Below, one piece after another: positions 1 through 42,969 of a stretch of 64,000 bases of DNA. Location of the stretch: contig JABDIN010000036.1 of assembly GCA_013003715.1 (NCBI GenBank), positions 1-64,000 of the forward strand, given 5' to 3'. Each line of letters opens with the position of its first letter. Within the stretch, counting starts at the first letter, position 1. The notes under the pieces are model-generated. The model saw nothing but the letters and a program-made list of their open reading frames with translations. It was not told where the DNA came from and did not search any database. Origin of the DNA: Desulfobacteraceae bacterium. Lineage in GTDB: Bacteria; Desulfobacterota; Desulfobacteria; Desulfobacterales; Desulfosarcinaceae. A program made the position numbers and the translations under genes.

Positions 1-337
1 AAGCAGTAGCACACTCTTAACGAAAAGTCTAGATTTTAGTTGTTATTTCAAATGGTTACACAACAGAATCGCGATTTTGTGTTATTGCAATACCTTACCT
101 CTCATTTTCCAAATGCGGTTACCCTGCCGATATAGTGAAGCAAGTTGCGGACCAGAGTTTACTCTGCCTATAAGGGAGGGACTCGATTGCAAAACTGGTT
201 TATTTTCCTGCTGGGCAAGTGGTGTTTCCGGCTGTGTGGGCGCCAAACTCTTGCCGGCTCGTTATGATGGACCCATGGTATGGAAATTGCTGTGTAATTA
301 GGACCCTAATCGATATTAATAGTTAAAGGCAGACCCA
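1..337. other. Intergenic start of window, no gene seen
   Basis: I see no convincing coding sequence here. A 74-codon open frame at 77-301 has no ribosome-binding site and no recognisable motif. The only signal is a sigma-54-like site at 276-291, listed separately, which faces the TPR island. Confidence 0.6.
276..291 (+). promoter_or_regulatory. Candidate sigma-54 promoter of the TPR island
   Basis: TGGTATGGAAATTGCT has the GG-N10-GC spacing of a -24/-12 promoter. It differs at two bases from the site in front of flgB (TGGTATGATAATTGCT at 18118). The start codon of the first TPR gene lies 47 bases downstream. It suggests that the island is expressed with the flagellar regulon. Confidence 0.6.
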
Positions 338-1870
338 ATGCACCAAAACAGTCACGGACAATACTATAAAGCATTAAACAAGATCCAACGCGGAAACTAC
401 GGCAAGGCGACCCGGATATTAGAGGATCTATTATTACTGCATCCCAAACATCCTGATGTCCTGCATCTGCTGGGTGTTTGCTATCTGGAATCAGATCATA
501 TCGACTCGGCGATGGATTGTCTTGAAAAAGCGGCGATCACATGTCCGGACAACGCACGGTTTCAATATCATTACGGTCTTTCCCTGATAAAATCAACTCG
601 TTTAAAATCAGCATCGATGGCGTTTCAGTCCGCATTGGAAATTGACAACACTTTATACAATGCCCGCTTTAATCTCGGAAAGGTTTATAAAGACCTGGGG
701 CGTTACCAGGATGCAGTCGAAGCATATGAAGCTTTATTAGGCTGTGTACCAGGACATATCGATGCCCTGTACAACCTGGCCAATCTTTATGCGGACATGA
801 ATGACTATGCCAGAGCATCCTTTTTATATGACAAACTTTTGACGATTGATCCCCAGCACATGAATGCGCGGGCTAATCTTGGTTTGATATTCAGCAAAAC
901 CGGAAGAGGAAGTGAGGCCATAAATGAATTGGAACAAGTTCTACACATGGATCCCGAAAATGAATTCGCCAGTCAAACCTTGCGAAAGCTCAACAGCCGG
1001 TTGATTCCTGCGTGGCACTTTGACATGCTGAACGATGATATCAGGAATATAGCATATGACCGCGCTATTCGAAACACCGTGACGAGTTCGAGTCATGTTT
1101 TGGAAATTGGTACCGGTTCCGGTCTGCTGGCGATGATGGCCGCCCGCGCGGGAGCCCGGCAAGTTACTACATGCGAAATGGTTACTTCTTTGGCCGATTG
1201 TGCCCGTAAAGTTGTCCGATGCAATGGATATGAAGACCGGGTGCGGGTTATTGGTAAAAAATCGACCTCGCTTGAGGTGGGGCTTGGAAAAGATCTCGAT
1301 GAGAAAGCCGATGTGCTGATTGCGGAAGTGTTTGATGTCGGATTGCTTGGCGAACAATTTCTTCCCGCCCTCATTCATGCAAAGGAAAATCTATTAACGC
1401 AAGATGCTGTGTTTATTCCGGCCGCTGCGAAGATAAAGTGTGTTCTGGCGGAGTGCCCGGATCTAAGGAAAATAACACCATTGAAAGCTGTTGCCGGCTT
1501 TGATTTGAGTGAATTCGACATGTTTCGGGCCCCGGGATACAGACAGTTTGATATGTGGAACACTGAGCACAGAGTTTTAAGTGAACCGTTCGATGCGTTG
1601 GATATCAATTTTAAAAATGTGTCGGAGTTTGCTTCTACAGGACATAAGCGTATTCGATGTCTGGAGAAGGGCATGTTGCAAGCAATTATTTTCTGGTTTG
1701 AGTTATTCGGCGACACGGAGATTCTATACACTTCGAATCACAAAGGGGGTCGAAATCATTGGAAGCAGGCTATTTATTTTCTGCAAATGGATTATCCGGT
1801 CATGCAAGACGAGATAATACAGCTTGAAATCCAGCAGCGATGTGCAGACCTGTCTTTCAAGGTCGTATAG
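338..1870 (+). CDS. TPR protein with PRMT-like SAM methyltransferase domain
   Basis: The protein has 510 residues. Residues about 8-215 are TPR repeats, seen as recurrent A-x-x-N-L-G and A-x-x-x-Y motifs. Residues about 228-510 form a class I methyltransferase. The SAM motif I is VLEIGTGSG (254-262), followed by acidic E280. The segment AEVFDVGLLGE (329-339) matches the double-E loop of protein arginine methyltransferases, closest in style to PRMT7. The expected reaction is methylation of a protein side chain, with the TPRs choosing the substrate. It opens the TPR/glycosyltransferase island behind a sigma-54-like site, so flagellin or another flagellar protein is an inferred substrate. The exact substrate and residue cannot be read from the sequence. 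Confidence 0.75.
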   Translation: MHQNSHGQYYKALNKIQRGNYGKATRILEDLLLLHPKHPDVLHLLGVCYLESDHIDSAMDCLEKAAITCPDNARFQYHYGLSLIKSTRLKSASMAFQSALEIDNTLYNARFNLGKVYKDLGRYQDAVEAYEALLGCVPGHIDALYNLANLYADMNDYARASFLYDKLLTIDPQHMNARANLGLIFSKTGRGSEAINELEQVLHMDPENEFASQTLRKLNSRLIPAWHFDMLNDDIRNIAYDRAIRNTVTSSSHVLEIGTGSGLLAMMAARAGARQVTTCEMVTSLADCARKVVRCNGYEDRVRVIGKKSTSLEVGLGKDLDEKADVLIAEVFDVGLLGEQFLPALIHAKENLLTQDAVFIPAAAKIKCVLAECPDLRKITPLKAVAGFDLSEFDMFRAPGYRQFDMWNTEHRVLSEPFDALDINFKNVSEFASTGHKRIRCLEKGMLQAIIFWFELFGDTEILYTSNHKGGRNHWKQAIYFLQMDYPVMQDEIIQLEIQQRCADLSFKVV

Positions 1871-2068
1871 GGCTGGAAGCCACCAGGTCAGTATGAAATA
1901 TATCCATGGTTCGAATAAACCTTAATTGTGTTCAGGTCCAGTGATATCTCCGGGAAGGCAAGACTCCGATATACCCTGCAGCTTATCTTTGCATACGGTA
2001 TTCCCGCCATGGAACTTTTAGAAGCCTAATGTGTCGGACTGATGATTGGAAACTCCACATAATATTCC

Positions 2069-3811
2069 ATGCCAAGTAAAATGGAAAAATATAAAAATTC
2101 CCCATACGGGCCTGATGAGGTACCGAAGGCAGCGCCAACGCTTTGCCGGTTGGGAGAGATCCATTTAAAAAAAGGGAATTTTGAAAAAGCAAACATTCGT
2201 TTTCTTCAGGCCATAGAGCAAAATTCAAATTGTGCGACGGCCTACCACGGAATGGGAATAATTCTGCAACACGAAAAAAAATTCAGTCGGGCAATTGCAT
2301 GTTACCAAAAAGCGAAGGAATTGGAGCCTTTCGCCTTAAAACATCTGGTGAAAATCGGTCTCGCATACAGAGAGATCGGACGACTTAAAGAGGCAGTAAA
2401 CTTTTTGCAGAAGGCAATTTCAATCAACAAAGGTGTTGGGTCGGTGTACTTTTTGCTCGGCCAAGTCTACTATGATTTAAGCCGATTTACCGATGCGGTT
2501 TCCTGTTTTCAAAAAACAATTGAATTGAACCCGGTTCATATGGGCGCATATGTCGGTCTGGCTGACTGCTATATGGTTTTTCGGCAACCAACTCGTGTGA
2601 TGGAAGTGTATTATAAGGCGCTTAAGCTGGATCCTGAATCAGCAATTGTATTAAACAACCTGGGTGCTGCTTTCATGGAAACAGGTGAGGTTGAGACCGC
2701 TATACGCTATTTTAAACAATCCATTCATTTCGATCCGCATCTCGCCGAAGCCTATATTAATATCGGCAGCCTTTACCGGGACAACGGAGAGATGAAAAAG
2801 TCGATCCGTTTTCTGGAAAGAGCTATTCAATTGAACCCCGAAGCGGCCGAAGCCCATTATAATCTATCCCTATCATATTTGTACATCTATGATTTTCCCA
2901 AAGGCTGGGAAGAGTATGAATGGCGATTCCGGACACCACTTTTAGATCTCCAAAACCACCTGTTGGCCGATGAATCATATTGGGACGGTGGTCCGCTGAA
3001 CGGGAGAACCATCCTGATCAGAGATGAACAGGGAGTAGGGGACACCCTACAATTCATCAGGTTTTTACCGTTGGTGAAACGTTTGGGGGGCATTGTTTTA
3101 TTTGAAACTGAGAAGCCATTATCCGGTCTATTAACACATTTCAATGGAATTGACCGTTTTATAGATCGCCGAAAAGAGGAATTATCGGAAATTCACTTTG
3201 ATTGCTACATCCCGTTAATGAGTCTTCCCCGTATTCTGCAAGCCGGCATTGAATACAAACACAATACGGTGCCGTATTTGTATGCTGATCCACAAGGTGT
3301 TCGAAAATGGGCCAAGCGGATTTCCGCTGAACCTGGTATCCGAATCGGGATTAACTGGCAGGGGAATCCGGATTATGTGTCGGACAAATCAAGGTCCATC
3401 CCGTTTCACCATTTCCATAGTCTCTGCCGCATGAAGGGCATCTCCGTATTCAGCCTCCAAAAGTATTATGGACTGGAACAACTGGAAAACCTGCCCCCGC
3501 ATGTCCGGATTATAAACATGGGACCAGACCTTGATGAGGAATGTCGGGCCTTTGTTGATACCGCGGCGGTTATCGAATCTCTTGATCTTATCATCACCTC
3601 GGACAGTGCCATATCCCATCTTGCCGGTTCACTGGGGAAAAAAGTGTGGCTATTACTGCCCTTTGTCCCGGATTGGCGGTGGGGTATTAGCGGAGAAAAT
3701 ACGCACTGGTATCCAAACATGCGATTGTTCCGGCAGATTTCTCCAGGGGATTGGTCCGAACTGTTTTCAAGGGTTGCCAATGCATTAACCGAATTCGTGA
3801 GTTCCCGATAG
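2069..3811 (+). CDS. TPR protein with GT9-like glycosyltransferase domain
   Basis: The protein has 580 residues. About seven TPR units fill residues 25-270. The C-terminal 300 residues follow the pattern of TPR-linked glycosyltransferases related to heptosyltransferase family GT9: IRDEQGVGDTLQFIRFLPL, then IGINWQGNPDY, then ITSDSAISHLAGSLGKKVW near the end. The last is the usual nucleotide-sugar side of the GT-B fold. It probably transfers a sugar to a protein or glycan, but donor and acceptor are unknown. The gene is separated from the methyltransferase gene by 198 bases with no terminator. The start is uncertain: an ATG at 2081 is also possible and neither has a strong ribosome-binding site. 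Confidence 0.75.
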   Translation: MPSKMEKYKNSPYGPDEVPKAAPTLCRLGEIHLKKGNFEKANIRFLQAIEQNSNCATAYHGMGIILQHEKKFSRAIACYQKAKELEPFALKHLVKIGLAYREIGRLKEAVNFLQKAISINKGVGSVYFLLGQVYYDLSRFTDAVSCFQKTIELNPVHMGAYVGLADCYMVFRQPTRVMEVYYKALKLDPESAIVLNNLGAAFMETGEVETAIRYFKQSIHFDPHLAEAYINIGSLYRDNGEMKKSIRFLERAIQLNPEAAEAHYNLSLSYLYIYDFPKGWEEYEWRFRTPLLDLQNHLLADESYWDGGPLNGRTILIRDEQGVGDTLQFIRFLPLVKRLGGIVLFETEKPLSGLLTHFNGIDRFIDRRKEELSEIHFDCYIPLMSLPRILQAGIEYKHNTVPYLYADPQGVRKWAKRISAEPGIRIGINWQGNPDYVSDKSRSIPFHHFHSLCRMKGISVFSLQKYYGLEQLENLPPHVRIINMGPDLDEECRAFVDTAAVIESLDLIITSDSAISHLAGSLGKKVWLLLPFVPDWRWGISGENTHWYPNMRLFRQISPGDWSELFSRVANALTEFVSSR

Positions 3812-3880
3812 CAGTTTTTTATAAACCAGCAACATTGGGGCATATACCACACTGATTTTATTTTATATAGGCTGCATTGT

Positions 3881-6226
3881 ATGTCAAAAATGAACGACAT
3901 TTGTGAAAAAGGGGCTAAGTTGCTCCTCGAGAACAAGTTTGAAGAGGCTGAATCTTGTTTTCTTGAGGTGATAGCCTCTGATCCGGCATATTTGGAAGCG
4001 CGTTTCCTGTTGGGGAATTTGCTGTATCTTAAAAACAGGATCGGTGAGACGATTGAGCAGTACCAATATATTCTCGAGCGCCATCCGGAATCTGTCCAGG
4101 CGCTATACAATCTAGGTCAGGCTTATGGAAAATCCAGTAGATACGATGACGCCGAAGCCTGCTACCGACAAATACTTCACAGAGACCCGGCCCATCGGGA
4201 GGCGCTGTTTTCCCTGGCCGATGTCTTTCTCGAACGGGGGGAGCTTGAGCGTTCGATATTGAAATTCGAACATCTGTTGCGACTATATCCTGAACTCGTA
4301 GAAGTCCACTTTAAACTGGGTATTGCATACAAAACAGCCGGGTTACTGGAAAAAGCCATCGTAGCGTTCCATGGCGCTTTAAGAATAGATCCGCAAGTCG
4401 CACATGTTTACAACCATCTTGGAATTGTACATAAAATGAAGGGCAGCTTTTCCATCGCGGAGAAATTTTACCGCCAAGCCCTGAGTATAGACCCGGATCT
4501 GAATGATGCTCACAACAATCTGGGGACGCTCTATCATGACACAGGCCGTTACACGAAAGCGATTGATTGTTTTAAAAAGGCGTTGTCAATTAATCCGAAC
4601 TATGCGGAAGCGACCCACAATCTGGGAAACGTCCTGCAATCCATGGGACAATACCAACAAGCACTCGAGTACTACCAGCAGACAGTGGATTGTAACCCCC
4701 ATTTCAGTTCAGGTTATTATCATTGCGGCATTGCTCATCAGAATCTCAAAAACTCAAGCGAGGCGATCGCTTGTTTTACAAAGGCCTTGTCCCTCAGGCC
4801 GAAATGGGGGAAAGCCGTCTGTGCGCTTTATCACCAGCTCCAGCAGATTTGTGACTGGCACCGATTGGTGGAATTGGACCCGGTCATCAATAAAATGACG
4901 GCAAACGCCCTTCAAAACGGCGAACAGCCTGCCGAACAGCCATTTCTCAGTGTCATTCGTAAACAACATCCTTCCGAAAATCAAGCGATCGCCCGGGCCT
5001 GGAGCAGAGAATTGACCCGGCGCTTTTCATCGTCTGGCAATCGGTATTTACCACACCGGCTTCCTGAACCGGGGGGGCGGATCACCATCGGTTATGTCAC
5101 CAATCGGTTTCGGAATGCTGCTACTGCACAGCTGATGCGGGGTCTGTTGTATAAGCATGACCGTAGCAGGTTCAGGATACATTGTTACGCCTATGGCCCG
5201 GACGATGGCAGTGACTATCGAAAAGACATTGTGGCGGCCAGCGATGAATTTATAGACATCTCAGCAATGGGATTCAGTCAGGCTGCCGATAAAATACATA
5301 AAGATGGTGTGAATATTCTCGTGGATCTGAAAGGATATACCCGGAATAATCGGTTGGGAATTTTTGCTATGCGGCCGTCTCCAATCCAGGTTTCATATCT
5401 GGGTTTCACCGGAACCACCGGAGCAGATTTCTTAGACTATATCATAGCAGATAAAATCATCATTCCTGATCATGATGCGGTCTATTACAACGAAAAATTA
5501 GTGTATATGCCGGATTGTTATATGGTCAACGACGATACAAAAGTGATTTCGAGCAAGAATTGGACGAGAAGTGCGTTTGGTTTGCCGGAAACCGGTGTTG
5601 TATTCGGTGCCTTTTTTACACCATACAAAATTGACCGATCGACATATCTCGCCTGGATGAACATTCTAAAAGCTATACCTGAAAGTGTTCTTTGGGTTCT
5701 GGAAAAAGAGCCGGCCTTCAAATTGAATTTGAAAAAGCATGCCGAACAGGCCGGTGTTTCTCCGGATAGAATTCATTTTGCCCCCCAAATGCCCATTGCA
5801 GAACACTTGGCACGATTGAAACTAGTCGATATAGCCCTGGATACCTGGTCTTCAAATGGCCATACAACCACCAGTGATGCATTGTGGGCCGGTGTCCCGG
5901 TAGTTACGATGATCGGAAATAATTTTACATCACGGGTAGCCGCCAGCTTGCTGAAGGCCATTGGCATGACAGATCTAATTGCAACTAATCCTCTTCAGTA
6001 TCAGGATATTGTTATCGGTTTAGCCTCTGATTCAGCTAAACTTGAAACGCTAAAGAAGCACTTGCTTGAACAAGTAAAAAACAAACCCTTATTTGACACG
6101 AAGAGATTCGCAAAGAATCTTGAGTACGCATATACAGCCATGTGGTCCAAATATCTCGCGGGACATTCTGTCCGCCCTATCCATGTGCCGGACCAATACC
6201 GCTCTGAGCCTATGGTGATAGCCTGA
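3881..6226 (+). CDS. TPR/GT41 O-GlcNAc transferase-like protein 1
   Basis: The protein has 781 residues. About eight TPR units (residues 8-330) are followed by a SPINDLY/OGT-type GT41 catalytic region. Recognisable blocks are ITIGYVTNRFRN, LVDLKGYT, RPSPIQVSYLGFTGTTGADF, YKID and NGHTTTSDALWAGVPVVT. GT41 enzymes transfer a sugar from a nucleotide donor to Ser/Thr of proteins held by the TPR groove. Here the NHPT motif of the family reads N412-A-A-T, so the usual histidine is alanine, while H661 of the HTT motif is kept. The other two GT41 proteins of the island show the reverse pattern. The Caulobacter flagellin glycosyltransferase FlmG has the same TPR-GT41 architecture. Confidence 0.85.
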   Translation: MSKMNDICEKGAKLLLENKFEEAESCFLEVIASDPAYLEARFLLGNLLYLKNRIGETIEQYQYILERHPESVQALYNLGQAYGKSSRYDDAEACYRQILHRDPAHREALFSLADVFLERGELERSILKFEHLLRLYPELVEVHFKLGIAYKTAGLLEKAIVAFHGALRIDPQVAHVYNHLGIVHKMKGSFSIAEKFYRQALSIDPDLNDAHNNLGTLYHDTGRYTKAIDCFKKALSINPNYAEATHNLGNVLQSMGQYQQALEYYQQTVDCNPHFSSGYYHCGIAHQNLKNSSEAIACFTKALSLRPKWGKAVCALYHQLQQICDWHRLVELDPVINKMTANALQNGEQPAEQPFLSVIRKQHPSENQAIARAWSRELTRRFSSSGNRYLPHRLPEPGGRITIGYVTNRFRNAATAQLMRGLLYKHDRSRFRIHCYAYGPDDGSDYRKDIVAASDEFIDISAMGFSQAADKIHKDGVNILVDLKGYTRNNRLGIFAMRPSPIQVSYLGFTGTTGADFLDYIIADKIIIPDHDAVYYNEKLVYMPDCYMVNDDTKVISSKNWTRSAFGLPETGVVFGAFFTPYKIDRSTYLAWMNILKAIPESVLWVLEKEPAFKLNLKKHAEQAGVSPDRIHFAPQMPIAEHLARLKLVDIALDTWSSNGHTTTSDALWAGVPVVTMIGNNFTSRVAASLLKAIGMTDLIATNPLQYQDIVIGLASDSAKLETLKKHLLEQVKNKPLFDTKRFAKNLEYAYTAMWSKYLAGHSVRPIHVPDQYRSEPMVIA

Positions 6227-6237
6227 AATACTTAAAG

Positions 6238-6253
6238 CGGTACGAGATTTGCA
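6238..6253 (+). promoter_or_regulatory. Candidate sigma-54 promoter before the TPR-only gene
   Basis: CGGTACGAGATTTGCA shows GG-N10-GC spacing and is nearly the same as the site before flgF (CGGTACGATTATTGCA at 42954). It lies 70 bases upstream of the preferred start codon at 6325. A second sigma-54-like site inside the island strengthens the link with flagellar regulation. Confidence 0.55.
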
Positions 6254-6324
6254 GATACTAAAGATCCGAGGTAAAAAAATAAGCGAATATGGAGATTCCG
6301 ACGTCTCCAACAAGGAGTTATGGC

Positions 6325-7263
6325 ATGAAAAATCAGTCAGAAATGTATGGTGATATTCAGGAAATGCTGAACAGCAACCAGGACCGGAAAGCTATCATCA
6401 CCCTTGAGGATTTAGTGAAGCAATACCCGGACTTTGCACGCGCTCATGCGGATTTGGGGATGTTATATCATAAATCAGGTGATACGGGAAAAGCCGTGGA
6501 CCATTATAAAAAAGCGTCTGAACTGGATAAGGGTAATGCTGAATTGCTTAAGATATTGGCTGATTACTACTATGTTGAATTGAAAGACACTGCCTTGGCA
6601 CTTATCACCTATAAAAAATTATTAGACCTGGAACCCAATGATGTCGATGCGCTTACCATCACCGGAAATCTCTGTTTATGTGAACATCAGTGGGATGAAG
6701 CCGAGCATTATTATAAGCGAGTGCAGGAGATCGAACCATGGCGATTTGAAATACAGGAATACCTGGATAAGTTGGCCACGCGCGGGGAGAAGGATGAAAA
6801 CGATGACCATCCGGGTGTTGCTGAGCTTTACCAATCAAGCCAGGACCAGGTAAACGCCGGAAATTTGACTGGAGCCTTAGATTTACTGGAAAAGATAGTG
6901 GAAATCGATCCGGAACGAGCGTTGGCCTACAATGATCTCGGTGTCATCCATTACCAGATGGGAAAGAAAGAGAAAGCCATTGATTATTACCGGACAGCGT
7001 TGAAACTCATGCCCGAAAATCACGTCTTTTTAAAAAATACTGCGGACTTTTACTGCTATGAGCAGGGAAACCTGCAAGAGGCCTTGCCGATATATTCGAA
7101 GATACTCAACGAAGAACCCACCGACATCGAAGTGCTGATGACCATGGGCCGGATCAATGTGCATCTCGAACGCCCCGATGATGCAAAAATCTTTTTCAAT
7201 CGCGTATTGGATATCGAACCGTGGAATATTGAGGCGAGTGAGCAACTGGAACTATTGAACTGA
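6325..7263 (+). CDS. TPR-only protein
   Basis: The protein has 312 residues and consists almost wholly of TPR units, in two blocks joined by an acidic linker (KDENDDHPG). It has no signal peptide, membrane segment or catalytic domain, so it is likely a cytoplasmic adaptor. The ATG at 6325 is preferred because AAGGAG ends eight bases before it. An in-frame ATG at 6289 lacks a well-placed site. It sits between two GT41 genes and could deliver substrates to them. No specific family is recognised beyond TPR. Confidence 0.75.
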   Translation: MKNQSEMYGDIQEMLNSNQDRKAIITLEDLVKQYPDFARAHADLGMLYHKSGDTGKAVDHYKKASELDKGNAELLKILADYYYVELKDTALALITYKKLLDLEPNDVDALTITGNLCLCEHQWDEAEHYYKRVQEIEPWRFEIQEYLDKLATRGEKDENDDHPGVAELYQSSQDQVNAGNLTGALDLLEKIVEIDPERALAYNDLGVIHYQMGKKEKAIDYYRTALKLMPENHVFLKNTADFYCYEQGNLQEALPIYSKILNEEPTDIEVLMTMGRINVHLERPDDAKIFFNRVLDIEPWNIEASEQLELLN

Positions 7264-7279
7264 TGGTTATCTGTTAGCT
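7264..7279 (+). promoter_or_regulatory. Weak sigma-54-like site before GT41 gene 2
   Basis: TGGTTATCTGTTAGCT keeps GG-N10-GC but matches the rest of the consensus poorly. It begins immediately after the upstream stop codon. It could arise by chance. Confidence 0.3.
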
Positions 7280-7397
7280 GAATGTCATTGCGTTGGCAGG
7301 TTCGACAAGACGATGACACATACAAGGCGCCCTTTTCCGGTGCTTTTTTGAGTCTTCCCAATACTACGGAACCATTTCTTAGGCAGTTTGGTATACA

Positions 7398-9335
7398 ATG
7401 CCTCATCAACAAGACAAAACACACTTGAGTGACCTGCATCTTTCCAAAGGGAAATCTTATCGCATCAACGGACAGTATAAAGAAGCAATGGAAGAACTGC
7501 GGAAAGCAATTCAATCGAATCCGCTTTCAGATGAAGCATATAATCAATTAGGCGTGCTCTTTCAAATTAGCCAATCCTATGATGAGGCGATATCATGTTA
7601 TCTGAAAGCACTCTCCTTAAATAAGGAACGTTTCGATATTCTTCACCGAATCGGACTTGCTTACCAGGATGGAGGGCAACCACAGAAGGCTGTGGAGGTC
7701 TATGAAAAAGCACTGGTGTTAGATCCGGGGTCCATCACCATTCACATCAACATGGGAACGGCCTACCAGATGATGAATCAATACCATGAGGCCATCCAAT
7801 GTTATGGTGAAGCCATCCGGCAAGATCCTGGCAATCCCGCAGCCCACTTGAATATGGGAACAGCATACGCAAAACTCGCGCAAATTGAAAAAGCGGTACG
7901 ATGTTATGAGACAGCCCTAACATTGAAACCGGATTACGAGAAAGCCGTCTGTTTTCTTTACAAGCACTATCAGGCAAATTGTAATTGGGAGAAAACCGAA
8001 CACCTGGGGAAGCGGTTGGATGATTTGACGCAGCAGTCGCTCTCATGTGGGAAAAAACCTGAAGAAACGCCCTTTTTAAATATCAGCCGCCATGAAGACC
8101 CTGTGCTTAACCATGCTGTTGCCGCAGCCTGGGTTAACAACCCCGCAAATCAACCAGATTGGAAAGTGAAAGGGGCGCGACTCATACAGGAGATTCAAGA
8201 GGTAAATGACAAGCTGAACATCGGATATCTTACCAACAATTTTCGAAATCATCCCACGGCACAGCTTCTCACAGGGCTTTTTCGGCATCATGATGCTACA
8301 CGGTTCAATATTCATTGTTATTCCTATGGGCCGAATGACGATGACCAATATAGAAAAACGATAGATGCGAACTGCTTTAAGTTCACTGATTTACAGCGTG
8401 TGAGTGATCTGGAGGCAGCAAAGATTATTGCTGATGATAAAATCCATATCCTTGTCGACCTAAACGGCCATACCACCGGCAGCCGGTTAGGCATCTGTGG
8501 TTTAAGACCGGCTCCGTTGCAGGTGCGTTATCTCGGCTTCGCAGGTACAACCGGAGGGGATTTTTTTGACTATCTGATTACGGATAGAATTGTTACCCCT
8601 GAGCATGACCGGAAATTTTATTCGGAATCTTTTATCTATATGCCGGCATGTTACCAGATCAACGATTATGCTGCGGACCATTGTTCGTCAACGGAGATGG
8701 GATCAGATGATAAAAAAGAGAGTAAGGATTTTATCTTCTGCTCATTTTCATCTTCATACAAAATCGACCCCATACTGTTTGACATTTGGATGAGACTCCT
8801 TAAACAGGTCGATTCAAGTGAATTATGGCTTTTGGGTGGTAATCCGGCAGTAGAGCATAATCTGATGAAGGTGATCAGGTTCGCGGGCGTTGATCCTGAT
8901 AGAATCATGTTCTGCAAGAAACTCCCCAAACCTGATCATATCGAGCGTTTAAAGGGTGCTGATGTGGCATTGGATACCCGAATCGTTAACGGCGCGATTA
9001 CAACAAGTGATGCACTCTGGGCCGGTTTGCCGGTGATTTCGATCAGGGGATCTCATTTTGCTTCTCGAATGTCCGCCAGTATGCTTCATGCCGCCGGTGT
9101 TCCGGAGTTGGTTACTGAATCCCTCGAAGAGTATTTTGAGCTTGCCATTCGATTGGCAACCTCTCCGGCGTCGTTAGCCGATGTGAAACAAAAGATAGCC
9201 ACAAATAAGGCAGAATATCCATTATTCAACACAAGGGAATCGACAAAAATTATAGAGGGTGCTTACCTGAAAGTATGGGAGTATTATCAGAACAACGAAA
9301 GAATTGAAATCGTGAAGCCGCAGTCATGTGCCTAA
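7398..9335 (+). CDS. TPR/GT41 O-GlcNAc transferase-like protein 2
   Basis: The protein has 645 residues. Five to six TPR units (residues 5-185) precede a GT41 domain with LNIGYLTNNFRNHPTAQL (H285 of the NHPT motif present), LVDLNGHT, RPAPLQVRYLGFAGTTGGDF, YKID and NGAITTSDALWAGLPVIS. In the last block the histidine found in human OGT (HTT) is alanine (A533). Many bacterial GT41 members vary here, so activity is not excluded and a different donor sugar is possible. Its stop codon overlaps the start of the next GT41 gene by eight bases, so the two are translationally coupled. It shows the same architecture as FlmG. Confidence 0.85.
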   Translation: MPHQQDKTHLSDLHLSKGKSYRINGQYKEAMEELRKAIQSNPLSDEAYNQLGVLFQISQSYDEAISCYLKALSLNKERFDILHRIGLAYQDGGQPQKAVEVYEKALVLDPGSITIHINMGTAYQMMNQYHEAIQCYGEAIRQDPGNPAAHLNMGTAYAKLAQIEKAVRCYETALTLKPDYEKAVCFLYKHYQANCNWEKTEHLGKRLDDLTQQSLSCGKKPEETPFLNISRHEDPVLNHAVAAAWVNNPANQPDWKVKGARLIQEIQEVNDKLNIGYLTNNFRNHPTAQLLTGLFRHHDATRFNIHCYSYGPNDDDQYRKTIDANCFKFTDLQRVSDLEAAKIIADDKIHILVDLNGHTTGSRLGICGLRPAPLQVRYLGFAGTTGGDFFDYLITDRIVTPEHDRKFYSESFIYMPACYQINDYAADHCSSTEMGSDDKKESKDFIFCSFSSSYKIDPILFDIWMRLLKQVDSSELWLLGGNPAVEHNLMKVIRFAGVDPDRIMFCKKLPKPDHIERLKGADVALDTRIVNGAITTSDALWAGLPVISIRGSHFASRMSASMLHAAGVPELVTESLEEYFELAIRLATSPASLADVKQKIATNKAEYPLFNTRESTKIIEGAYLKVWEYYQNNERIEIVKPQSCA

Positions 9336-11775
9336 AACAACAATGACAATTAATTCTCTTTTAAAAAAAGCGGTGGGCCTGCACAAGGCCGGCAATCTGC
9401 AGAAGGCGCTATCTGTATATCAAACTATCCTCAACGCACGGGCGGATCATCCGGATGCGTTGCATCTCAGTGGTTTGATTGCCCACCAATGTGGTGATCA
9501 TGAAAAGGCACAGTCCCTCATTCGGGCCGCAATCCGGATCAATCCGAAAAATTCATCCTATTACAACAATTTGGGTGCAGCATCCAGATCCGCCGGAGAT
9601 TTTAAGTCTGCGGAAGACTGCTATGGTCAAGCCATTGCCCTGGAACCCGATTACACCGAAGCCTGGTATAACCTCGGATCAGTGAAGCATGCCGCCGGTA
9701 ATCTCGATCGGGCTGTAGAATGCTATAGCCGGGCGATTCGACTGAATCCGCGTTATATTGATGCCTTGAATAACCTGGCTGCCGCCTACAATGATTTGGG
9801 GAAACCGGCTGAAGCCATTTCCTGCTGCCGGAAAATCATTGGTCTTGATGCCGGATACGCCCAGGCATTCAATAATTTAGGAAACGCATTGAAGACCATG
9901 ACGCGATATTCCGAAGCACAGGAGGCATACCAAAAGGCAATTGCCCTAATGCCGGATCAATGTGAATTCTATAATAATCTGGCCAATGTTCACATGGACA
10001 ACGGCAACTTGAAGGCCGCTGTGGAATTGTATCAAAAATCCATCTCTTTAAATTCCAAGTCGGCGGAATCTTTTAATGGATTGGGTACGGCACTGAAAGC
10101 CCTGGGCAATCATAATGAAGCATTAGCCTGCTTTAAAAAATCGGTGGGGCTGCGGCCGGATGATTATCAGGGATACCACAACATGGGCAATACCTTCCTT
10201 GAATTACAGAATTATCCTGAGGCAATATCCTGCTACGGCAGGGCCATACACTTAAATCCCCGTCAGCCCGAACCCTATCTGAACATGGGATTTGCCCACC
10301 GGGATTCAGGACATCCGGACGACGAATATCAAGCATATCGGAAAGCCCTGCAAATCGATCCGGATTATGAAAAAACTTACAGCCATATCCTCCACCATTT
10401 AATGCAGGCGTGTGACTGGGAATCGCTTGGCGGACTCAATGATAAACTCGACTGGATAACCCGACGCGCTATTCGCAACGGCAAAAGGCCGGAGGAAATG
10501 CCCTTTCTTAATCTGGCACGGACCGATGATGTTGAATTGAACTACCGCGTCGCACGGTCCTGGAGTCTGGAAATTGAGGCGCAGTGTTCGGCGCTTCGGC
10601 CCATCAGACAAGCGGAGAAACCAACCCCGGCAGCAGCACTGAATGATAAATACCGAATCACCATTGGTTATCTGTCCAACAATTTTAAGAACCATCCCAC
10701 AGCACATCTCACCGCCGGAATTTTCAAGCGCCATGATCGTGGCGGGTTTAAGGTAAATTGCTATTCATATGGGGAAGACGACAAAAGTGATTATAGACGG
10801 ACCATACAGGCCACCTGCGATCATTTCGTTGACCTGCAAGGAATAGATCATTTGACCGCCGCCAGGATCATCGCCGATGATGGGGTGGATCTCCTTATTG
10901 ACCTAGTAGGCTACATGAAAGGACACCGGCTCCATATACCGGCGTTGCGTCCGGCGCCCATCCAGATCCGGTGGTTGGGAATGGCCGGGACCACCGGCGC
11001 CGGTTTTTTCGATTACCTGCTCACCCATCCGATCGTCACACCGGAAAACCATGAGCCGTATTTTTCCGAAGCCTTTGCCTATCTGCCGGACTGTTACCAG
11101 GTCAACGATCAGGGGCAAAAAATCGCCGATGATGCCATTTCGAGGGATAAGATGGGCTTACCCCCGTCGGCTTTTGTTTTTTGTTGTTTCTGCACCCATT
11201 ACAAAATCAATCCGGAGATATTTGATGTCTGGATGAAGATACTCAAAAGCGTTCCGGACAGCGTGCTGTGGTTGTTGGAAGGGAAGGGCAGGGCATCGGA
11301 AAATCTAAGACGCGCCGCCCGGTCGCATGGCGTCGCGGATTCACGATTGGTTTTTGCAAAGAAAACAGCAAAAGCCCAGCATCTTCAACGTCTTCAACTG
11401 GCCGATCTCGCTCTTGATACACCTTTAGTGAATGGCGCGGCCACCACCAGCGACGCCTTGTGGGCCGGTGTTCCGGTGATATCAATCCAAGGGAATCATT
11501 TTGCTTCCAGAATGTCGGCCTGTATTTTATCGGCCATTGGACTGTCCGAGCTGGTAGCCCGGGATTTAGAAGGGTATGAAACACTTGCCCAACGGTTGGC
11601 CACACAACCGCATTTGTTGTCGGGACAAAAGGAGATATTACACCATAATCGGACCAACGAGCCTCTGTTTGATACAGCCATGTTTGTAAAACATCTGGAA
11701 ACCGCTTATCGGATAATGTGGGAAAAACATCAAAAAGGGGATAAGCCGACATTGTTTCATGCGGGAAAACGATGA
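9328..11775 (+). CDS. TPR/GT41 O-GlcNAc transferase-like protein 3
   Basis: At 815 residues this is the largest protein of the island. About ten TPR units (residues 5-345) lead into a GT41 domain: ITIGYLSNNFKNHPTAHL (H456), LIDLVGYM, RPAPIQIRWLGMAGTTGAGF, YKIN and NGAATTSDALWAGVPVIS (A704 in place of the OGT histidine). The gene begins with GTG at 9328 inside the preceding gene; an ATG at 9343 is an alternative. It closes the island and is followed by a strong terminator, facing the flagellin/flbT/flaF operon. A role in flagellin O-glycosylation is inferred from domain order and position. Confidence 0.85.
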   Translation: MPKTTMTINSLLKKAVGLHKAGNLQKALSVYQTILNARADHPDALHLSGLIAHQCGDHEKAQSLIRAAIRINPKNSSYYNNLGAASRSAGDFKSAEDCYGQAIALEPDYTEAWYNLGSVKHAAGNLDRAVECYSRAIRLNPRYIDALNNLAAAYNDLGKPAEAISCCRKIIGLDAGYAQAFNNLGNALKTMTRYSEAQEAYQKAIALMPDQCEFYNNLANVHMDNGNLKAAVELYQKSISLNSKSAESFNGLGTALKALGNHNEALACFKKSVGLRPDDYQGYHNMGNTFLELQNYPEAISCYGRAIHLNPRQPEPYLNMGFAHRDSGHPDDEYQAYRKALQIDPDYEKTYSHILHHLMQACDWESLGGLNDKLDWITRRAIRNGKRPEEMPFLNLARTDDVELNYRVARSWSLEIEAQCSALRPIRQAEKPTPAAALNDKYRITIGYLSNNFKNHPTAHLTAGIFKRHDRGGFKVNCYSYGEDDKSDYRRTIQATCDHFVDLQGIDHLTAARIIADDGVDLLIDLVGYMKGHRLHIPALRPAPIQIRWLGMAGTTGAGFFDYLLTHPIVTPENHEPYFSEAFAYLPDCYQVNDQGQKIADDAISRDKMGLPPSAFVFCCFCTHYKINPEIFDVWMKILKSVPDSVLWLLEGKGRASENLRRAARSHGVADSRLVFAKKTAKAQHLQRLQLADLALDTPLVNGAATTSDALWAGVPVISIQGNHFASRMSACILSAIGLSELVARDLEGYETLAQRLATQPHLLSGQKEILHHNRTNEPLFDTAMFVKHLETAYRIMWEKHQKGDKPTLFHAGKR

Positions 11776-11810
11776 TGGTGATGTTCATGAATTGACAATG
11801 AGTATAAAAA

Positions 11811-11836
11811 AGGCCTCCAACGGAGGCCTTTTTTTT
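11811..11836. terminator. Bidirectional rho-independent terminator
   Basis: AGGCCTCC (11811-11818), loop AAC, GGAGGCCT (11822-11829), then a T run. A run of A precedes the left arm, so the hairpin can also stop transcripts from the other strand. It separates the convergent GT41 gene and flaF. Confidence 0.9.
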
Positions 11837-11874
11837 AACTATTGCCTGTAGCTACGGGAAAGTTCGGGTTCGAA

Positions 11875-12252
11875 TCAGTCGGATGAACTCCTTAGACCCG
11901 CGGCAAGATTCAGATTTATATCTATTATAATAGAGATCTTATCCGATTTTGGAAATGCCATGACATTGAAAATGCGTTTATCAATGAAGGCACTTAAACT
12001 CAGGATGTTTTCCCTTATCTGTTTGGGCAGGGGATTGGCCTCGTCCAACAGATCGCCCTGGATGATACTCCAGATTCGTTGATTGTAACGGAGTGCTTCA
12101 TCCAACTGCTGCCGTCGGTTCGGACTGTCCCAGTTTTCCTGACAGTTTTTCAGCAGCATGGCCGCTTTGGTCAGGACCCTGGCTTCGGTTTCCCGCCCGG
12201 AGATGGTTTTCTGCTCAACTGTCTGGTAAGCTTGTAGCGGAGTCTGATACAC
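11875..12252 (-). CDS. flaF: Flagellar biosynthesis regulator FlaF
   Basis: The protein has 125 residues. It begins VYQTPLQAYQTVEQ and contains the LLKNCQENWDSP and RYNQRIWSIIQGDL segments of the FlaF family. FlaF acts with FlbT on flagellin synthesis and secretion, mostly known from alphaproteobacteria. I chose the GTG at 12252 because AGGAGGT lies nine bases upstream. An ATG at 12273 in the same frame has no such site. The start lies inside flbT, giving a 38-base overlap and probable translational coupling. The gene is last in the flagellin operon. Confidence 0.85.
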   Translation of the reverse strand: MYQTPLQAYQTVEQKTISGRETEARVLTKAAMLLKNCQENWDSPNRRQQLDEALRYNQRIWSIIQGDLLDEANPLPKQIRENILSLSAFIDKRIFNVMAFPKSDKISIIIDINLNLAAGLRSSSD

Positions 12253-12631
12253 GGGAAATAACCTCCTGTTCATATTCGATCAATTTTGCGGCTGTTTTTA
12301 AACCGGTGTAGTGGTTGCCTTTTAAAATGTGATCATTGATCTGATCGATGATCGGCAGCGCACTTGGGACAGCGCCCAGAAACGCTTTCACCAGTTTCCA
12401 GTAGGTCTGGTGATGCACCGCCATATTTTCTCCGTCAATGTACATGAGTTGAATCACGAAATAAATCCGGCTGGCCGGGGTTTCGGCCGCGGATTCGCTC
12501 ATGATGTCTTTTTCTCGTAATAACGGGACTTTATTCTCAAAGAAGAGATCACATTTGCTGTTGCCATTGGTGACAACGGCGCCACCGATGATAATACGTT
12601 CATTGGGTTTTAAAGATATTTTCAGCGCCAT
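12215..12631 (-). CDS. flbT: Flagellin synthesis repressor FlbT
   Basis: The protein has 138 residues. It shows the FlbT hallmarks: KISLKPNERIIIGGAVVTNG at the start, FFENKVPLLREKDIM, and a helical C-terminal half. In Caulobacter FlbT acts after transcription on the flagellin mRNA leader, coupling flagellin translation to hook completion. The flagellin gene of the same operon here has a leader of about 120 bases with two hairpins, so a similar mechanism is plausible. It lies downstream of the 218-residue gene and overlaps flaF. Confidence 0.88.
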   Translation of the reverse strand: MALKISLKPNERIIIGGAVVTNGNSKCDLFFENKVPLLREKDIMSESAAETPASRIYFVIQLMYIDGENMAVHHQTYWKLVKAFLGAVPSALPIIDQINDHILKGNHYTGLKTAAKLIEYEQEVISRVSDSATSLPDS

Positions 12632-12669
12632 GGATTTAAATTTTATGGATTGTTTTCGCTTAAGAAATA

Positions 12670-13326
12670 TTAAAACAGAGTGATTTTTTCCACATCTTCG
12701 GCGAGTTCTGTTCTGCGTTGACCCAGAAGTTCAATAGCGTTGTCGAGACGATCAAGGGTATCGTGGATTTGATCATTATCCGCTGTGTGTGGCAATTCAG
12801 GTATGTTCAGCGCCCCAGGACCGGTGTGTACGGGTTGTCGTCGGATACCGATTTGGATCTCTTTATCCCCGAAGGTGACCACAGGAGCACCCTGTTTACT
12901 ATCGCCCATTATTTCCCGTGCGCCTTCATCCGGTGGCTCAAATGCTAACGCATCGATTTGCCGACGTAAAGTGGAAAAATGCTTCAGATTCTTTACCCTC
13001 TCTTCACTTCCGGGCGGAAAGGGCGGGAATAACTTGATTATTTCAACCAGGTCGGACTTCATTTTTTTAAGGTGTTGATCAATGTTCTCCATGGTGTCGT
13101 CAGTGGACCTGATACTGCCGGCCACTTTACTTAACACCGTATTCACTTCCTCTAATTTTCGAATCGCATAATCGCTGTTGTTGGCATGCAATTCCACCGT
13201 GTCATCCTCGGTTGGTGGGTGGAGTTCCGTGTCGACCTGATTTTTCTTCAGATGAGGATGCGAATCCGATCCTAACGACCGGGCAAGAGGCTGGATTTGG
13301 TGAACATCTACTTCGGCTATCTTCAT
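12670..13326 (-). CDS. Unrecognised flagellin-operon protein
   Basis: I do not recognise this 218-residue protein. It is hydrophilic, has no signal peptide or membrane segment, and looks largely helical. Distinct segments are YAIRKLEEVNTVLSKVAGSI, a proline-rich FPPFPPGSEERVKNL around residues 100-114, and a helical C-terminus with DTLDRLDNAIELLGQRR. The start is supported by TTAGGAG nine bases upstream. It lies between the flagellin gene and flbT, 89 bases after the flagellin stop codon and behind a strong hairpin. A role as flagellin chaperone, cap or secretion helper is possible from position only. Confidence 0.7.
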   Translation of the reverse strand: MKIAEVDVHQIQPLARSLGSDSHPHLKKNQVDTELHPPTEDDTVELHANNSDYAIRKLEEVNTVLSKVAGSIRSTDDTMENIDQHLKKMKSDLVEIIKLFPPFPPGSEERVKNLKHFSTLRRQIDALAFEPPDEGAREIMGDSKQGAPVVTFGDKEIQIGIRRQPVHTGPGALNIPELPHTADNDQIHDTLDRLDNAIELLGQRRTELAEDVEKITLF

Positions 13327-13340
13327 AACCTTTTGCTCCT

Positions 13341-13376
13341 AAGAAAAGAATCGGAGGGGGAATTGCTTCCCCCTCC
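13341..13376 (-). terminator. Attenuator or terminator after flagellin
   Basis: A perfect ten-base stem (GGAGGGGGAA with TTCCCCCTCC, loop of four) is followed on the minus strand by GATTCTTTTCTT. It would stop most flagellin transcripts while allowing some to continue into the 218-residue gene, flbT and flaF. This fits the much higher need for flagellin. Confidence 0.7.
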
Positions 13377-13415
13377 TAATATCTTTCTGAACTACGAACT
13401 CACGGGCTGAGACGA

Positions 13416-14219
13416 TTAGAACAATCTCATTACTGATTGCGCCGCCTGTGAGGACATGGACAATGAAGTCGTACCCAATGATTGACGAGTTTGAAGCATC
13501 AACATGTTGGCACCCTCTTCATTCATATCCGCCAGGGTCAACTGGTCGGCACCGGTATTCAGGGTGTCGATCATGTTGTTGGTGAAGTCTTCACGAATGG
13601 AGATGGTGGAGAGGTTTGACGCCAGTTTCTGTGCTTCTGTTCTCAGACTGGTCACAGCATCATCAATGTCGCTGATGGCTGCTTCAACATTGGTATTTGT
13701 ATCGAATGTGGACACTGCAACTGTTACACCAGCTACTGTACCAGCAGTCGTTGCTGTCGTACCGGAAACACTCAAGGTATTCGAGCCGTCTTCGTTGAAT
13801 TCAACGGACAGGCTGTCGCCATCCAGAAGGTTGATGCCGCCATAACTGGAGTCAGATGCCATGGTGGCGATCTGGCTGCGAATGACATCAAACTGATCCG
13901 ACAAGTCGCCGGTGTTCGTGGATGTTTTGGCTGCCTGGGCCAGAGATTTCATCTGGTCCAAAAGATCATATATACCTTCAATACCGGTATTTGCAGCTTC
14001 GATGGTTTTAATGGCTTCTGCCATACCGTCTTTTTTTGCGGACAGGTCATTGGCCCTATCGGTATGGTCTTTGGCCTTAAAAAAGTTGACTGGATCGTCC
14101 AGAGCGGTGTTTACACGTTTACCTGAGCTAAGACGTTTCTGGGTGAGCTCCATCATTTTGGATGTGCCCTGCAAACTCGAAAGATTTGCCCTCATTCCTG
14201 CGGTTAATGCGATTCCCAT
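13416..14219 (-). CDS. fliC: Flagellin (filament subunit)
   Basis: The protein has 267 residues, short for a flagellin, so the surface-exposed variable region is almost absent. The N-terminal D0/D1 region has KRLSSGKRVNTALDDP. The C-terminal region ends in LGTTSLSMSSQAAQSVMRLF. The middle (about 135-175) is rich in Ser and Thr (SVSGTTATTAGT), which makes it a candidate for O-glycosylation by the neighbouring GT41 enzymes. A good ribosome-binding site (AAAGGAG) precedes the ATG. The gene heads an operon with the 218-residue protein, flbT and flaF, and is driven by a sigma-28 site. Confidence 0.92.
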   Translation of the reverse strand: MGIALTAGMRANLSSLQGTSKMMELTQKRLSSGKRVNTALDDPVNFFKAKDHTDRANDLSAKKDGMAEAIKTIEAANTGIEGIYDLLDQMKSLAQAAKTSTNTGDLSDQFDVIRSQIATMASDSSYGGINLLDGDSLSVEFNEDGSNTLSVSGTTATTAGTVAGVTVAVSTFDTNTNVEAAISDIDDAVTSLRTEAQKLASNLSTISIREDFTNNMIDTLNTGADQLTLADMNEEGANMLMLQTRQSLGTTSLSMSSQAAQSVMRLF

Positions 14220-18117: not shown

Positions 18118-18133
18118 TGGTATGATAATTGCT
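18118..18133 (+). promoter_or_regulatory. Sigma-54 promoter of the flgB operon
   Basis: TGGTATGATAATTGCT, GG-N10-GC, 38 bases before the flgB start codon. The predicted transcription start near 18144 leaves a normal leader. Confidence 0.7.
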
Positions 18134-42953: not shown

Positions 42954-42969
42954 CGGTACGATTATTGCA
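42954..42969 (+). promoter_or_regulatory. Sigma-54 promoter of flgF operon
   Basis: CGGTACGATTATTGCA shows GG-N10-GC and TTGCA. It is 36 bases upstream of the flgF start codon. Confidence 0.65.

Follow-up and report, generated by a model that had tools for sequence, protein, structure and literature searches.

Among the closest described counterparts of the locus reported here is FlmG of Caulobacter crescentus, a protein of 596 residues combining a tetratricopeptide repeat (TPR) array with a GT-B glycosyltransferase (GT), for which TPR-mediated flagellin binding and flagellin glycosylation have been demonstrated (PMC7591256). Enzymes of the GT41/SPINDLY type have also been predicted from genomes in flagellin islands of Enterobacteriaceae, and the majority of these enzymes include a methyltransferase domain (PMC4875605). 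Here we describe a six-gene island in a Desulfobacteraceae bacterium, a member of a sulfate-reducer lineage (GenBank assembly GCA_013003715.1), found in positions 1 to 64,000 of contig JABDIN010000036.1; this whole 64,000-nucleotide stretch is referred to below as the window. We read the island, with a probability of roughly 0.8, as a set of cytoplasmic flagellin-modifying enzymes that would glycosylate flagellin with TPR-based selection of the substrate, and to which a TPR-linked arginine methyltransferase (PRMT) would have been added as an extra module.

The island's GTs would share with FlmG a cytoplasmic TPR plus GT-B design, and one of them, the product of open reading frame (ORF) 2, is probably related to presumed FlmG orthologues encoded beside flbT and flagellin. 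Unlike FlmG, a single enzyme that uses pseudaminic acid, the island encodes four TPR-GTs, three of them of family GT41, in a genome where NeuB is not evident. The Enterobacteriaceae islands likewise carry GT41s beside flagellin but, unlike the present one, are flanked by fliC and fliA; the main text of that paper mentions neither TPR nor tetratricopeptide, and its available passages contain no PRMT (PMC4875605). GmaR of Listeria monocytogenes, a flagellar GT with TPRs, resembles in make-up the TPR-GT2 genes of some relatives described below, and differs in being also an anti-repressor and in having its GT domain at the N-terminus (PMC3150276). Already on record, then, are the prediction of GT41s in flagellin islands (PMC4875605), a TPR-GT shown to act on flagellin (PMC7591256) and the GT-TPR combination of GmaR (PMC3150276). 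Our literature searches brought up no earlier description of several TPR-GT41s adjacent to an adaptor, of a TPR-PRMT in such an island, of a flagellin-linked family of TPR adaptors, or, for this lineage, of a slot anchored on FlaF in which TPR-transferases replace one another. The open-licence literature gave, among the matches listed, no flagellin arginine methylation, no bacterial TPR-PRMT and no TPR-GT41 islands in Desulfobacterota. Enterobacteriaceae are not known to have FlaF or FlbT.

The island and the flagellin operon it faces

ORF calling placed six genes on the + strand over 338-11775, at the left end of the contig (C42), separated in order by 198, 69, 62, 134 and -8 bp; since the window begins at base 1 of the contig, the island may extend past its left edge. 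The first gene (338..1870, +) encodes the TPR-PRMT, in which a TPR array at about residues 1-214 is followed by one PRMT7/PRMT9-like module, as judged by a Pfam PRMT_C match above cut-off, similarity to the PRMT7 and PRMT9 sequences in the PDB, and an AlphaFold model. ORF 2 (2069..3811, +) combines Pfam TPRs with a GT9-like domain that scores 19.3 bits against Glyco_transf_9 (PF01075), under the Pfam cut-off of 22. ORF 3 (3881..6226, +; GT41 a), ORF 5 (7398..9335, +; GT41 b) and ORF 6 (9328..11775, +; GT41 c, with an OGT-like catalytic domain) are TPR-GT41s whose scores of 341.7, 302.2 and 327.9 bits far exceed the curated cut-off of 25 for Glyco_transf_41 (PF13844), and all six GT41 matches in the genome fall inside these three genes. 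ORF 4 (6289..7263, +) encodes a TPR-only protein, a candidate adaptor of a FlaF-linked family with homologues in the clusters of relatives. An earlier note on this DNA had proposed six TPR-protein genes end to end; all six ORFs lie where it placed them, and Pfam agrees with the architectures it gave, for the GT9-like one by a sub-threshold match.

Convergent with this run, on the opposite strand over 11875-14219, is a flagellin operon comprising flaF (11875..12273, -; PF07309, 111 bits), flbT (12215..12631, -; PF07378, 143 bits), orf9 (12670..13326, -) and a gene for a flagellin of 267 aa (13416..14219, -; PF00669 and PF00700), the presumed substrate. The product of orf9 gave no match in Pfam and NCBIfam scans; several relatives have a counterpart (30-44%) at the corresponding position. 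Between the convergent gene groups sits a bidirectional terminator-like hairpin (11806..11834) with a 13-bp stem, A and T runs on either side, and a folding energy of -18.8 kcal/mol (z -4.2). A terminator facing flaF had also been claimed, and the strong fold found there agrees with it, though a separate terminator scan of the window did not list this hairpin.

The flaF slot, the TPR-only family and sigma-54-like sites

We took a census of related genomes that was anchored on FlaF, with GT41 playing no role in the choice of loci. FlaF was found in 37 of 146 genomes, the window's own included, and the slot, defined as the DNA beyond flaF, was testable in 33 of the 36 relatives, the contigs of the other three (G026, G027 and G045) ending within 0.7 kb. 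ORFs were called mechanically (longest ORFs, overlaps dropped), which missed some FlaF and FlbT genes, and those loci were re-read by position; in some of the scans the reference sequences for the window's minus-strand genes were without their first codon. A TPR-GT occupies the slot in 22 of the 33 relatives, the GT41 and GT9-like calls resting mostly on home-made profiles: GT41 in nine (G017, G028, G020, G116, G011, G014, G043, G010 and G077), GT9-like in five (G081, G012, G001, G006 and G037), and GT2 or GT2/GT4 in eight (G058, G137, G002, G057, G097, G082, G029 and G103). The G017 enzyme sits behind a transposase-like ORF and one more ORF, and that of G037 lies about 3 kb away, past flagellin. 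Sixteen of the 22 genes are convergent with flaF, and six (in G012, G020, G001, G014, G006 and G010) are codirectional with it. In two further slots (G019 and G025) there is a protein with PF01973, which we take to be the domain of Maf, a known flagellin glycosyltransferase; these belong to a different family and, in those two genomes, are without TPRs, and PF01973 was not among the matches listed for the six island proteins. One slot (G005) holds sugar-nucleotide enzymes, an epimerase and a GDP-mannose dehydratase. A closely similar island is kept in G011, with flagellin at 91%, FlbT at 81% and FlaF at 80%, three GT41s and a TPR-only protein, and with a TPR-sulfotransferase at the position of the window's TPR-GT9-like and TPR-PRMT genes. 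The occupation of one slot beside flaF by unrelated transferases is the best functional argument for a link to flagellin. The synteny of TPR-GT41 with flagellin that the earlier note had proposed to look for is borne out for TPR-GTs at the flaF slot (GT41 in 9 of the 22), and does not extend to GT41 as a family, which is not flagellin-specific.

Some of these loci contain giant TPR proteins beside flaF or one gene from it: one of 3,614 aa (L196, 2310-13154, +), one of 2,341 aa (L203, 3463-10488, -) and one of 2,147 aa (L198, 4576-11019, +). The latter two were scanned: several GT2 domains were found in each, and a sulfotransferase domain in one of them. The TPR-GT41 of G077 is followed by five tandem ORFs, each of 593 aa and recurring every 1,881 bp (L225, 8914-18219, -), which may be a genuine array of repeats or an artefact of the assembly.

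The TPR-only protein belongs to a specific family linked to FlaF and is not a random TPR protein. Homologues of ORF 4, nearly full length and 36-65% identical, are found in the clusters of G011, G017, G023, G028, G082, G074, G019 and G029, and related sequence is also embedded in giant TPR-GT2/GT4 proteins (L203 and L208). Of the 145 relatives, 24 carry the family at E 1e-30, with at most 15 candidates scored per genome. It was found in 21 of the 36 with FlaF versus 3 of the 109 without (G016, G023 and G074; Fisher 7e-13, with no correction for kinship). When the window's own family is left out, the proportions are 8/19 versus 1/97. GT41 itself follows FlaF more loosely (20/37 genomes with FlaF versus 27/109 without, own genome included; p 0.002).

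Sites resembling sigma-54 promoters precede genes of the island and of the flagellar operons. A -24/-12-like site (276..290, +) begins 62 bp ahead of the TPR-PRMT start and another (6238..6252, +) begins 51 bp ahead of ORF 4. The former, TGGTATGGAAATTGC, equals the site at 18118 before flgB, TGGTATGATAATTGC, at 13 of 15 positions, and the latter, CGGTACGAGATTTGC, equals the site at 42954 before flgF, CGGTACGATTATTGC, at 12 of 15, so that calling them almost exact copies of the flagellar-operon sites, as had been done, is fair. A loose sigma-54 consensus with two mismatches allowed occurs at chance level in the window (69 versus 63.3 expected), another variant of the consensus has zero matches there, and sigma-70-like sites show no excess over shuffles. 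A tighter pattern, YGGYRY-N5-TTGC, which was read off the sites of the window and afterwards tried on other sequences, has 10 occurrences in the window versus 2.56 expected (0 of 100 shuffles had as many); five of these sites precede genes (ORF 1, ORF 4, flgB, where the site touches the mechanically called ORF start, flgF and the second activator) and five lie inside genes. In 300-bp regions upstream of 43 island genes, hand-listed from 14 genomes, the pattern gave nine sense sites, in eight of the genomes, and no antisense site (shuffles: mean 0.26, maximum 3 in 500; none of the 500 reached nine). With the window left out, seven sense sites remain in 37 regions, although the 500 shuffles had included it.

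By a Pfam-based reading of those ORFs that were scanned, which are part of the intervening ones, two sigma-54 activators follow flagellin, and then flagellar genes: flgB, flgC, fliE, fliF, fliG, fliH, fliI, motA, flgF, flgG and flgA, and further flgH, flgI, a rod-binding protein gene, flgN, flgK, motB and another motA. A second PF00669 protein is encoded among them.

Predicted enzymes of the island

ORF 2 is probably the FlmG-like protein of the island, an assignment made through presumed orthologues of the Maricaulis group and not through Caulobacter FlmG, because these presumed orthologues match the GT9-like and not the GT41 profile. Twenty of the 49 FlaF places of that group were read: a TPR-GT9-like gene of 563-632 aa lies close to the FlaF anchor in 13 of the 20 loci, the GT41 profile matches none of them, and the GT9-like profile, built with ORF 2, matches FlmG-sized TPR genes beside flbT and flagellin at E 2e-22 to 5e-39. 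PF13844 finds nothing in the genome of Maricaulis itself, and Pfam lists neither PF13844 nor Glyco_transf_9 for three presumed FlmG orthologues. The earlier note's equation of TPR-GT41 with the architecture of FlmG is therefore probably wrong, given 0/20 loci with GT41 and 13/20 with a GT9-like gene. Counting against the assignment of ORF 2, the control Caulobacter vibrioides matches PF13844, as a genome-level match only. The ORF 2 domain found nothing among PDB sequences at E 0.1 and, its Pfam score being sub-threshold, the GT9-like label is derived mostly from the home-made profile. As to the donor, NeuB is not evident in this genome, which is 97% complete and has two weak PF03102 hits; this makes pseudaminic acid an unlikely donor. 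Both hits are read as DAHP synthases, judged by their ORFs and a pheA-like neighbour without a family scan, and pseudaminic or legionaminic acid is disfavoured accordingly.

The three GT41s are predicted OGT-like protein transferases, their membership judged by PF13844 and a lysine. The best PDB sequence match of GT41 c is an O-glycosyltransferase (E 1.5e-85), with the OGT 110-kDa subunit at 4e-81. The lysine aligned with OGT K842 (human numbering), which we take to be the GT41 catalytic lysine, is present in all three enzymes and in 46 of 46 aligned GT41 domains. The histidines of the NHPTxH motif vary: ORF 6 has both, ORF 5 one and ORF 3 neither, with A and Q instead, and ORFs 5 and 6 have A in place of H in the OGT NGHTT motif. 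Residues at the donor site differ among GT41 a, b and c in the alignment, leaving room for different nucleotide-sugar donors. In the GT41 tree, proteins of G011 pair firmly as orthologues with a and with c (100/100), but not with b. Eight GT41-rich genomes (G035, G040, G047, G060, G102, G104, G105 and G142) gave no flagellin match; some of their GT41 matches lie in open frames of 2,000-8,000 codons, and none of the eight was among the carriers of the TPR-only family, again with at most 15 candidates scored per genome.

The TPR-PRMT is, by motifs and modelled fold, a predicted PRMT7/9-like methyltransferase. Its PRMT module matches PDB sequences of PRMT7 (E 9e-46) and PRMT9 (E 9e-42), and it keeps S-adenosylmethionine (SAM) motif I, both glutamates of the double-E loop and the loop tryptophan. 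E330 and E339 are invariant in 36 aligned homologues, and in a set of 75 aligned sequences the two positions are E in 73 and 72; the THW loop reads NHW in the window's protein, with W in 71/75 and H in just 43/75. The AlphaFold model (pLDDT 94.3) superposes on PRMT7 and PRMT9 with Z 30-31.5, as against 27-29 for other PRMTs, in a fold comparison whose list is filled by the catalytic domain and so covers the PRMT module, not the TPR array; against 4c4a, Z is 30.6 and the root-mean-square deviation 2.4 over 292 residues, and the model also shows the fold of the C-terminal beta domain. The catalytic motifs and fold are common to PRMT7 and PRMT9 (PDB 4c4a, 6pdm and 8rbk), whereas the window's protein, from a bacterium, contains a single PRMT module, to which the PDB sequences of those two match with two stretches.

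TPR-PRMT is a widespread bacterial architecture. Taking one genome per species, we read the best 80 of at least 295 confirmed stretches with flanks of at most 10 kb (less on small contigs): 74 of the 80 loci gave a PRMT ORF, and 56 of these 74 have TPRs in front. Carriers belong to Pseudomonadota, Bacteroidota, Cyanobacteriota and others, Prochlorococcus among them. GT41 lies within 10 kb of PRMT in five of the 80 loci (L134, L150, L152, L155 and L163), scattered on the tree, and 21 of 25 PRMT genomes hand-picked from the 80, GT41-adjacent ones included, have flagellin elsewhere in the genome. A sample of 297 genomes of the phylum, the window's own among them, contains 8 with a match to the PRMT alignment at E 1e-15. 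The window's protein groups with a Rhodospirillales protein (96/93), apart from the Thermodesulfobacteriota copies, suggesting horizontal acquisition. In the set of 146 genomes a clear PRMT domain occurs in six relatives (G005, G025, G110, G061, G048 and G094), other hits being short and weak; the stretches read around these domains, two of them contigs of less than 9 kb, show neither flagellin nor GT41 nearby. One Desulfobulbaceae locus (L150, 9188-18700) encodes a TPR-PRMT, two TPR-GT41s and a TPR-B12-radical-SAM protein in a genome with no flagellin match, apparently a TPR-enzyme island aimed at a non-flagellin target. In a Desulfobacteraceae and a Myxococcota locus (L143 and L173) the PRMT profile matches nearly the whole of a 683-692-aa ORF, as if there were two PRMT modules in a PRMT7-like layout, and a TPR array was not detected.

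Alternative readings and a proposed mechanism

Several observations count against flagellin as the target. Flagellin-linked GT41s do not form a single clade in a label-shuffle test on the tree (13 label changes versus a shuffled mean of 13.9; 185 of 500 shuffles as low), the linkage labels being noisy in that rows counted as unlinked also come from fragmented assemblies and from clusters at a distance of 50-80 kb. Of 47 genomes with GT41, ten lack a flagellin match, and eight of the ten are GT41-rich; together with the missing clade, this makes GT41 membership alone uninformative on substrate. The distance between the listed GT41s and flagellin is 53-78 kb in G012, G019, G037 and G014 and about 1 Mb in G082; in other genomes the two are on different contigs. 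Seven of the 33 slots are without a glycosylation-like gene (G064, G127, G053, G041, G046, G108 and G009), and one (G115) is filled by a 393-aa TPR-only protein. Six of the 24 TPR-only genomes match about half of the query (G025, G027, G045, G057, G077 and G103), the G027 match with an internal stop. The relatives are not independent and the tests are uncorrected for kinship; the case as a whole is computational, built on genes and sequences. The abundance of GT41s without flagellin, their intermixing on the tree and their distance from flagellin would suit an island that modifies another surface or secreted protein, its adjacency to flagellin marking an insertion-tolerant end of the flagellar cluster. 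Such a reading is quite improbable when set against the TPR-GT or Maf genes in the flaF slot of 24 of 33 relatives, the TPR-only family that tracks FlaF, and the sigma-54-like sites ahead of genes. The proposal of multi-enzyme flagellin glycosylation finds support in the same three lines of evidence.

The methyltransferase is a different matter, and the chances are about even that the GTs act on flagellin while the TPR-PRMT is a hitchhiker methylating a non-flagellar protein. The wide distribution of TPR-PRMTs, their nearest relative in Rhodospirillales and the sequence of the window's flagellin, which contains no RG, GR or RxR motif, favour the hitchhiker, as does the count of flagellin in the flanks of related PRMT loci, 0 of 80 with a home-made profile that detects Maricaulis-group flagellins. 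Its gene nevertheless stands directly behind a sigma-54-like site, TPR-GTs come next on the same strand 198 bp on, and the GT41-adjacent loci, though few, are scattered on the tree. The flagellin methylation raised earlier as a possibility is unsupported so far by the 80 loci and six relatives; it is possible, on the strength of gene place and sigma-54-like site. As for the GT41s, they could be partly decayed or regulatory paralogues around a single active enzyme, as the A and Q of ORF 3 and the A for H of ORFs 5 and 6 might indicate. We think this unlikely, with all frames open, the lysine kept in all three, and ORFs 3 and 6 having firmly supported orthologues.

Returning to flagellin modification, we infer substrate, linkage and order of events from the observed gene content, placement, co-occurrence, sites and motifs. 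As the sites suggest, sigma-54 RNA polymerase and the neighbouring flagellar activators would transcribe the island together with the flagellar genes. By analogy with FlmG (PMC7591256), and in line with the co-occurrence of TPR-only proteins and FlaF, the TPR array of each enzyme may select its substrate by binding flagellin before export, whereupon the C-terminal domains would add sugar to flagellin Ser/Thr. The three GT41s would act as OGT-like transferases, possibly differing in nucleotide-sugar donor, the GT9-like protein as a FlmG-like transferase, and the TPR-only protein as a dedicated flagellin-linked adaptor for the island enzymes. The TPR-PRMT, probably gained by horizontal transfer as an extra module of like design, may act on arginines of flagellin or of some other client protein of the flagellum. 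A broader picture, which we put forward tentatively and hold to be possible rather than probable, is a modular platform in which interchangeable GT41, GT9-like, GT2, sulfotransferase and PRMT domains are carried on flagellin-reading TPR arrays with an adaptor, so that one flagellin would receive several sugars and methylarginine.

For the question of how cytoplasmic glycosyltransferases choose flagellin, the flaF slot offers a natural domain-swap series: the exchange there of GT41, GT9-like, GT2 and Maf, most of them with TPR arrays, lets TPR-guided selection be tested. If the PRMT does act on flagellin, the island would be a case in which a PRMT9-like enzyme methylates arginines of a bacterial flagellin, and would bring a eukaryote-type protein modification into bacterial motility.

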